DNA from: an uncultured Methanobrevibacter sp.
Lineage (GTDB): Archaea > Methanobacteriota > Methanobacteria > Methanobacteriales > Methanobacteriaceae
Assembly: GCA_902771225.1 (NCBI GenBank)
Contig: CACXWH010000015.1
Span: forward strand, 1 to 33,401
Reading direction: 5' to 3'
Length of the DNA stretch: 33,401 nt
Below the pieces are notes generated by a model, which saw only the letters and a list, made by a program, of their open reading frames with translations, had not been told where the DNA came from and made no database searches. How positions within the stretch are numbered: position 1 is the first letter of the stretch; each line of letters begins with the position of its first letter. The translations under genes and the position numbers were made by a program. Below are positions 2,869 through 3,720 of this stretch, in pieces.

Positions 2869-2892
2869 TTTTTTTAGGTATACCTAAAAAAA
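2869..2892. promoter_or_regulatory. Perfect 24-bp palindrome, DtxR/IdeR-like metal operator
   Basis: Two 12-base arms meet at 2880/2881: TTTTTTTAGGTA and its exact complement TACCTAAAAAAA. The core TTAGG-TATA-CCTAA has the form of operators bound by DtxR/IdeR-type iron or manganese repressors (TTAGG...CCTAA). It ends eight bases before the TATA box at 2901-2908 on the plus strand, where a bound repressor would block promoter recognition. The palindrome is seen directly; the regulator is inferred. Confidence 0.6.
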
Positions 2893-2900
2893 ACAAAACA

Positions 2901-2908
2901 TTTATATA
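2901..2908 (+). promoter_or_regulatory. TATA box for the plus-strand small RNA
   Basis: TTTATATA preceded by AAACA is a strong archaeal TATA/BRE arrangement. The usual spacing of about 25-27 bases puts the transcript start near 2930-2934, at the first base pairs of the first hairpin. No plus-strand gene follows until 6314, so this promoter has no protein gene to serve. Confidence 0.6.
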
Positions 2909-2930
2909 CTAGTTCTTACAACATTATTAA

Positions 2931-3120
2931 ATAGTGATGTGGAAAAACACATTGCTTAAACATAATTAGTCAAAAAAACTAATACAATCTCCAAAATTAA
3001 ATTATTTGAATTAGTTTCCACAATTTTCTAATTCAAAAACAAACACGGAAAAATCTGCCAAAATTTTCCAAAAAAAAACAAGTCAATAGGTGTTTAAACA
3101 ACCTTAAACACCTATTTATT
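2931..3120 (+). ncRNA. Candidate structured small RNA with five hairpins
   Basis: About 190 bases with no usable reading frame (the only early ATG gives ten codons). Five hairpins follow one another: 2933-2956 (9 pairs with two G-U, loop GAAAAA); 2965-2983 (6 pairs, loop CAAAAAA); 3005-3037 (10 perfect pairs, 13-base loop containing CCAC); 3047-3069 (6 pairs, loop containing TGCCA); 3085-3116 (13 perfect pairs, loop ACAACC, then T-rich DNA). The predicted start coincides with the foot of hairpin 1, and hairpin 5 makes a natural 3' end. The linker at 2984-3004 contains ATCTCCAA, an anti-Shine-Dalgarno-like sequence complementary to the rubrerythrin ribosome site. A metal-type operator overlaps the upstream promoter region. 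The hairpins would also exist as DNA inverted repeats, so RNA function is inferred. Confidence 0.5.
3085..3116. terminator. Bidirectional hairpin terminator
   Basis: Arms AATAGGTGTTTAA (3085-3097) and its exact complement (3104-3116) enclose a six-base loop. On the plus strand the hairpin is followed by TTTATT and further T-rich sequence. On the minus strand, downstream of rubrerythrin, it is followed by GACTTG and nine T. It can therefore end both the plus-strand RNA and the rubrerythrin message. Confidence 0.7.
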
Positions 3121-3154
3121 ATCTCTCATTTTAAAAAAAATAAAAAAATCAAAA

Positions 3155-3700
3155 TTATTTATAATTTTGAGCTCTTTGTTCGAAATGTGCTTTAGGATAT
3201 CCGCAAACAGGACATTGTTCAGGTGCATTAGGACCTTTTAAGATAAAACCACAGTTTTCACATTTCCATTCAACTGCTTCTTCTTTTGCAAATACAGTTT
3301 CGTCTTCAACAGTAGCAAGTAAAGTTCTATACCTTTCTTCATGCTCTTTTTCAATTTCACCAACTTTTTCAAACAAGAAAGCAATTTTAGCAAAACCTTC
3401 TTCACGAGCTGTTTCAGCAAATTCCTTATACATTGATGTCCATTCTTCGTTTTCACCGTCAGCTGCAGCATTCAAGTTAGTGATAGTGTCTGGTATTTCT
3501 TCATCGTGTAACATTTTATACCAAATTTTAGCATGTTCTCTTTCATTTTTGGAAGTTTCCATGAAAATATCATGAATTTGAACATATCCTTCTTCTTTTG
3601 CTTTTAAAGCAAAGTATTGGTATTTAGTGTGAGCTTGGGACTCACCAGCAAATGCCGCTTGTAAATTTTCTTCAGTTTTAGAACCTTTTAAATCAGTCAT
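3155..3700 (-). CDS. rbr: Rubrerythrin
   Basis: 181 residues. Rubrerythrin reduces hydrogen peroxide in the cytoplasm of anaerobes, using a diiron site and a rubredoxin-type iron centre. The N-terminal four-helix part carries the expected ligands in [10 protein letters not shown] and, later, [11 protein letters not shown], followed by [14 protein letters not shown]. The C-terminal rubredoxin-like domain shows CENCG and [12 protein letters not shown] five codons upstream also opens the frame, but the ATG at 3698-3700 is preferred because GGAG lies nine bases before it. A TATA box at about 3735-3742 predicts a very short leader beginning close to that ribosome site. The upstream same-strand gene ends 65 bases away, so this is probably a separate unit. 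Its ribosome site is complementary to the neighbouring candidate small RNA. Confidence 0.95.
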
Positions 3701-3703
3701 AAT

Positions 3704-3720
3704 ATACATCTCCAATATTA
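3704..3720 (-). promoter_or_regulatory. Rubrerythrin ribosome site, candidate small-RNA target
   Basis: On the message strand this region contains TTGGAGAT, including the GGAG Shine-Dalgarno motif nine bases before the ATG. It is exactly complementary to ATCTCCAA at 2987-2994 in the candidate small RNA. Pairing extends by four more bases on each side after one bulged base and one mismatch. Because the TATA box predicts a start near 3712-3716, the outermost pairs may fall outside the message. Confidence 0.4.

Follow-up and report, generated by a model that had tools for sequence, protein, structure and literature searches.

FsrA of Bacillus subtilis is a small RNA (sRNA) under the control of the iron regulator Fur. 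A C-rich motif in FsrA binds the Shine-Dalgarno sequence, and the RNA requires Fbp chaperones; IsrR of Staphylococcus aureus is modelled as pairing with the Shine-Dalgarno and start regions of iron-sulfur (Fe-S) enzyme mRNAs, fdhA among them; RyhB and PrrF, the latter in two copies (PrrF1/PrrF2), follow the same iron-sparing logic (sections of PMC9410917). A methanogen, Methanosarcina mazei, has three sRNAs (sRNA162, sRNA154 and sRNA41) in which a single-stranded region or a loop covers ribosome binding sites (portions of PMC3510493 and PMC5867862), and in Haloferax volcanii the archaeal sRNA s479 is tied to metal homeostasis (part of PMC8155600). What of iron in Archaea? One review passage reports a Pyrobaculum antisense RNA opposite a ferric-uptake-regulator gene (PMC5867862), the portion available of a 2026 review mentions no archaeal iron sRNA (PMC13414033), and searches of the open-licence literature showed us no archaeal sRNA that responds to iron and regulates iron proteins. 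Here we describe a candidate for that role at positions 2931-3130 of a 33,401-nucleotide stretch of DNA (the window; GCA_902771225.1, contig CACXWH010000015.1) from an uncultured Methanobrevibacter sp.

We propose that 2931-3130 probably encodes an sRNA, structured and trans-acting, that belongs to a multi-copy family and spares iron: a DtxR-type protein would keep it silent in iron-rich conditions, and under iron shortage it would block the translation of iron proteins. Iron sparing by a block on translation is the best explanation, and it rests on the complementarity of the RNA to iron-protein translation starts and on its genomic context. The parts of the locus, with the evidence for each, are these:

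2869 to 2892, no strand: putative DtxR-type operator palindrome TTTTTTTAGGTATACCTAAAAAAA, core TTTAGGTATACCTAAA at 2873-2888; an exact palindrome, with a similar box before feoB
2901 to 2908, plus strand: TATA box TTTATATA, from the sequence
2931 to 3130, plus strand: predicted small RNA of ~190-200 nucleotides; fold z -5.9, DNA and covariance-model matches in the genus
2933 to 2956, plus strand: hairpin 1, from the fold; the second DtxR-type box of most members is absent from the window copy
2965 to 2983, plus strand: hairpin 2, register not conserved; fold, alignment by eye, RNAalifold
2983 to 3004, plus strand: candidate seed S1 UACAAUCUCCAAAAUUAAAUUA, core AUCUCCAAAAUU at 2987-2998, predicted unpaired; unpaired probability, duplex ranking
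3005 to 3037, plus strand: hairpin 3, conserved loop CACAAUUU; compensatory changes
3047 to 3069, plus strand: hairpin 4, with a conserved AUCUGCC loop that is the complement of AUGGCAGAU starts; fold, duplex ranking
3081 to 3120, plus strand: terminator hairpin (13-pair stem 3085-3116), then a conserved UAUUAUCUCUUUUU-type tail; fold, alignment, compensatory changes
3155 to 3700, minus strand: rubrerythrin gene, convergent neighbour and candidate target, with site UUGGAGAU at 3708-3715 on the minus strand; Pfam Rubrerythrin and RUBY_RBDX

A preliminary description of this DNA had drawn attention to a 24-base palindrome, a TATA box, five tandem hairpins ending in a 13-pair terminator stem and the lack of a protein frame. 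Most of that picture stands. The palindrome is exact and is the longest perfect one in the window (the runner-up has 16 nucleotides; 0.01 of this length is expected by chance), the TATA box and the 13-pair stem are where the list gives them, and no open reading frame of at least 50 amino acids lies within 2869-3120. RNA starting at 2931 folds with an energy of -38.7 kcal/mol, against -17.6 +/- 3.6 for shuffled sequences; none of 200 shuffles does as well (z -5.9). Five hairpins do fold from 2931 in the window copy, but to speak of five goes a little too far, since the structure of hairpin 2 is not conserved. Relatives seem to build it from different bases (alignment by eye), and RNAalifold predicts no hairpin 2 on the family alignment.

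As comparison across genomes shows, the element belongs to a family that is real, structured, multi-copy and genus-wide. From fetched loci we collected 98 non-identical places, 73 of them near full length; 13 of the 25 partial places belong, by their coordinates, to a sibling (type II) family described below. A covariance model built from the 73 near-full-length members was searched across 150 genomes of the order, with stricter filters than a BLAST-type DNA search. The model finds the family in 62 of the 67 genomes of the window's genus and in none of 83 genomes from 18 other genera, whereas the DNA search matches 63 of the 67, part of its matches being promoter and boxes alone. Positive genomes hold one to five model matches. 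The window's own genome has three copies, namely the window copy, C38:15308-15461 (minus strand) and a weaker one at C9:12759-12901 (minus strand), and tandem arrays exist, for example three copies each at G017:C22 and G005:C7. An exact-pattern scan of named genomes, which the own genome may lie outside, returned 28 stretches, every one from Methanobrevibacter and M. thaueri included. G009, G025, G027, G030 and G061 gave no covariance-model match; at G030 a degenerate relative adjoins feoB (28.8 bits, E 0.012, in an unfiltered search of feoB loci, where the own-genome sibling copy scores 27.9 bits). A scan of the whole window against Rfam release 15 gave no match at or above a gathering threshold, and the RNA family is apparently undescribed. 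The longest ATG frame between promoter and tail has a median of 17 codons among the 73 members and a maximum of 46, reaching at least 25 codons in 17 members. Downstream lies a convergent rubrerythrin gene at 16 of the 98 places (10 loci; genes named by eye), as in the window. Where the downstream gene is on the same strand it often belongs to a single family (MNRTKKIILTILIV...; 28 of 98 places, for example L053, L089, L020 and L026).

Alignment across Methanobrevibacter and a search for covariation had been proposed at the outset, and the family passes both strongly. In the aligned sequences compensatory changes have preserved two stems, that of hairpin 3 and that of the terminator. In the 73 members 96.5% of the cells of these two stems are paired, and both sides have changed in 75 cells, compared with 17.6 in shuffles, none of 500 of which reaches 75. 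When the partners are slid against each other, pairing falls to 34-47% and the both-side changed cells to 7-22. Relatedness inflates the shuffle contrast; the slid control retains that relatedness, yet the structure was derived from the same sequences. With each sequence folded separately and at least four pairs required, hairpin 1 and the terminator stem are predicted in all 73 members, hairpin 4 in 65 and hairpin 3 in 70, the other three not being located by regular expression. The CUCC motif of the seed is predicted to be open, with a mean unpaired probability of 0.95 across five bases in the 73 members.

How might such an RNA be tied to iron? A box of the type TTAGG-N4-CCTAA, which we take to be a DtxR/IdeR operator, lies upstream of the TATA box in 69 of the 73 members (by a permissive regular expression), and a TATA box is present in 72 (also by regular expression). 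In 59 members, the window copy not among them, a second such box falls within the hairpin-1 region. Pattern TTTAGGNNNNCCTAAA has 11 exact sites in the own genome; the three family copies account for four of these and feoB for one. If as many as two mismatches are allowed, 228 box sites are found, against 323 for the reversed control. Since the loose matches show no enrichment, they carry no weight, and near-exact boxes alone count. Boxes precede feoB (named by eye) in the own genome, in five further genomes of the genus and at the feo region of two other genera; outside the genus, a box was read within 430 bp at two of nine loci (L356, L367). If sibling copies are counted, the closest gene upstream is a divergent feoB at 21 of the 98 places, which fall in 14 loci. 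The own genome has one gene whose product carries a Fe_dep_repr_C domain (G000:C34, L249 1303-2007), and a box with one mismatch precedes it. An operator-type motif and a DtxR-type repressor gene, the two features by which a DtxR/IdeR regulon may be recognized, thus occur together in this genome. The metal-repressor link first suggested from the palindrome is supported by these boxes, by the copies beside feoB and by the repressor gene, and DtxR control of the sRNA family is likely.

The feoB region holds further elements. A sibling, type II, RNA family lies divergent from feoB in the own genome (L003 1345-1570, minus strand; G000:C3:17152-17377), and the family is also represented by L395-L424. 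It shares the box-TATA-box layout of type I and has a GAAAUUAAAUAUG hairpin, and its conserved anti-Shine-Dalgarno-like segments (ACACUCC, ACUCUC and ACUACUCUCAC) differ from those of type I. Type II matches occur in 66 of the 67 genus genomes, many to the promoter only, with E below 1e-20 in 34 of 67; it frequently stands in tandem with type I. A micro-frame (about MRSKSGIRGAKVPK, by eye) is conserved before feoB in G025, G030 and G009 (L355, L354 and L353). At L370 (G030), within the ~300 bp that precede feoB, a 34-residue, cysteine-containing frame (MAKNCTSCKNEN..., by eye) separates that gene from the degenerate sRNA relative. Elsewhere in the own genome, an exact box (G000:C1:1522-1537) directly precedes an ABC-transporter ATPase and permease (by eye), possibly another regulon member.

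Which mRNAs would the RNA act on? A search of the own genome for the long exact complement TTTTGGAGATTG, allowing one mismatch, gave 49 sites against 17 for the reversed sequence; none of 30 inspected, one of which is the window sRNA itself, was convincing as a ribosome binding site, and we therefore redid the target search on gene starts. The survey covered 715 starts, called in the window together with 40 stretches of the own genome (833 kb, ~35% of the genome); genes were named by eye unless scanned with Pfam, as the window rubrerythrin was. By duplex energy with S1 the ferredoxin gene korD ranks first, fdhA third, a polyferredoxin gene fourth and the window rubrerythrin seventh (second among 348 gene starts). 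The polyferredoxin is of Fwd type, and its gene is followed by fwdB/fwdA-like genes. Core AUCUCCAAAAUU is complementary to the Shine-Dalgarno sites of korD, fdhA, the Fwd-type polyferredoxin and two rubrerythrins, the second of which, not among the sampled genes, carries AAUUUUGGAGAU and then AUGGCAGAU. UUUUGGAGAU, the complement of AUCUCCAAAA, stands upstream of two of the 715 genes, fdhA and the polyferredoxin. The shorter UGGAGAU precedes nine, of which five are iron proteins by Pfam (two rubrerythrin-type proteins, desulfoferrodoxin, FdhA and polyferredoxin) and two (L244:8612, L247:8700) were classed as non-iron by eye. Among 20 other GGAG genes drawn at random, three are iron proteins (one-sided hypergeometric 0.037, by hand), though the rubrerythrin, fdhA and polyferredoxin set had been spotted beforehand. 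S1 also favours Fe-S genes as represented by a preset cysteine-motif set (22 of the 715 genes), with a rank-sum p of 0.0003; a scrambled S1 gives 0.007. The RNA thus has a predicted unpaired seed complementary to the translation starts of iron proteins, with moderate statistical support.

Several results weigh against this reading of the targets. The same S1 ranking places non-iron genes high, a UPF0147 gene second and ribosomal L18 fifth; an unnamed gene is sixth. Scored on the cysteine-motif set, some of 160 S1 shuffles that keep CUCC do as well as S1: four when judged on the rank sum, 21 on the difference in medians and 18 on the number of genes in the top 10. UUGGAGAU shows no excess, with 3 sites where the frequencies of its halves lead one to expect 2.7. 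From these shuffles, the scrambled S1 and the UUGGAGAU counts, support for the specific sequence of S1 is therefore moderate; the target enrichment is partly post hoc. Conservation of the sites is two-edged. Of the 47 genus genomes read, 41 retain UUGGAGAUU before fdhA and 36 retain UUUUGGAGAU (two further loci, read separately, are both conserved), and the polyferredoxin site is present in 51 of 51 loci read. Yet five sRNA-bearing genomes lack the fdhA site, and genomes without a detected copy still have sites (polyferredoxin four of four, fdhA two of three). The longest conserved runs at the Shine-Dalgarno sites of the operon are 16 for fdhA, 13 for fdhB and 7 for fdhC, so that neighbours are conserved too. 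Among 11 genomes of other genera (outgroup locus L393, with no usable fdhA start, omitted), UUUUGGAGAU is absent before fdhA and AUGGAGAUU occurs in three; UGGAGAUU, also present in three, probably predates the RNA because it is found there. We rejected two stronger claims: that conservation of the fdhA Shine-Dalgarno site is unique, since fdhB is nearly its equal, and that conservation of the polyferredoxin site is proof, since by arithmetic part of the site falls within the 3' end of the preceding frame, and since all four copy-less genomes have the site as well.

Might the RNA have other seeds? The hairpin-4 loop AUCUGCC fits the AUGGCAGAU starts of hcp (rank 2) and mvhG (rank 3), both Pfam-supported; several AUGGCAGAU starts belong to non-iron genes, ATP synthase subunits and a histone among them (by eye). 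Its rank-sum p is 0.05, with one motif-set gene among the top 30, against 0.08 and three of 30 for a scrambled control, and its role as a seed for iron genes is suggestive. The hairpin-3 loop, considered as a third seed, shows no clear iron enrichment among the 715 starts (rank-sum p 0.16).

The DtxR/MntR family includes manganese sensors, and a DtxR-controlled sRNA could in principle sense or serve another metal, such as manganese, or act chiefly on other targets, as the non-iron genes among the top duplexes might suggest. We consider this unlikely: the boxes and copies stand at feoB, a ferrous iron transporter, and several iron proteins are among the best S1 matches. Could the C-rich unpaired segments instead simply mimic the 16S tail, lowering translation broadly or sequestering a protein, with no specific mRNA targets? 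Several of them do resemble an anti-Shine-Dalgarno sequence, such as AUCUCC and the CUCUCCUC that many relatives have in their terminator loop, and some CUCC-keeping shuffles equal S1. Conservation reaches past CUCC to AUCUCCAAA and AUCUGCC, however, and the fdhA and polyferredoxin matches span at least 10 bases, which makes a general anti-Shine-Dalgarno RNA improbable.

A leader or attenuator acting in cis on the downstream gene would account for the 36 of 98 places at which the next gene is on the same strand, 28 of them with the one gene family; it is very unlikely, as that gene is convergent in the window and at 62 of the 98 places and the element ends in a conserved terminator-like hairpin. 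That the family is a mobile repeat (like a miniature inverted-repeat transposable element) and not a gene is scarcely credible, despite its multiple copies, tandem arrays and varied loci, given its conserved promoter, operator and terminator, stems maintained by compensatory change and recurrent positions, next to rubrerythrin at 10 loci and next to feoB at 14.

For the iron-sparing sRNA that we favour, a simple scheme can be drawn. When iron is plentiful, a metal-loaded DtxR-type repressor would occupy the palindrome or palindromes around the TATA box and block transcription, as the boxes and their context suggest. When iron is scarce, the RNA would be transcribed, ending at the terminator hairpin and U-rich tail. 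Its unpaired segments, mainly AUCUCCAAAAUU and AUCUGCC, would pair with the Shine-Dalgarno and start-codon regions to which they are complementary, and this pairing would block translation of mRNAs for iron-rich proteins. Proposed targets are formate dehydrogenase, the Fwd-type polyferredoxin, the 2-oxoglutarate oxidoreductase ferredoxin and rubrerythrins, perhaps also Hcp and the MvhG hydrogenase subunit. A fuller proposal seems to us evenly balanced between right and wrong: an archaeal iron-sparing system in which a genus-specific multi-copy family and its feoB sibling, under double DtxR operators (one often inside the first hairpin of the RNA), use the separate seeds AUCUCCAAAAUU, AUCUGCC, CACAAUUU and terminator-loop CUCUCCUC to shut off translation of iron-rich proteins, among them formate dehydrogenase and the polyferredoxin of formylmethanofuran dehydrogenase. 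Iron supply would then be a direct throttle on the methane that rumen and gut methanogens make from formate and CO2. If the window RNA does spare iron, sRNA-based iron sparing arose independently in Archaea, with DtxR replacing Fur, and in rumen methanogens it would link iron with formate and CO2 reduction, a point of relevance to methane mitigation.

How close is the window RNA to the systems with which we began? RyhB and PrrF differ from it in sequence (compared by Rfam alone), FsrA differs in structure, and we know of no DtxR control of sRNA162, sRNA154 or sRNA41. For IsrR, compared through Rfam alone, there was no homology match. RyhB and PrrF depend on Hfq, and IsrR is bacterial and Fur-controlled (both from sections of PMC9410917), whereas the window family has DtxR-type boxes, often two per promoter, an archaeal TATA promoter and many copies. 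The M. mazei sRNAs serve carbon or nitrogen metabolism, not iron (portions of PMC3510493 and PMC5867862), and s479 concerns zinc transport and a CRISPR-flanking gene (part of PMC8155600). IsrR and FsrA appear nearest in action, in that C-rich unpaired segments are set against Shine-Dalgarno sites. By analogy, the best explanation is a window RNA that acts in the manner of RyhB, FsrA or IsrR but has no evident kinship to them.
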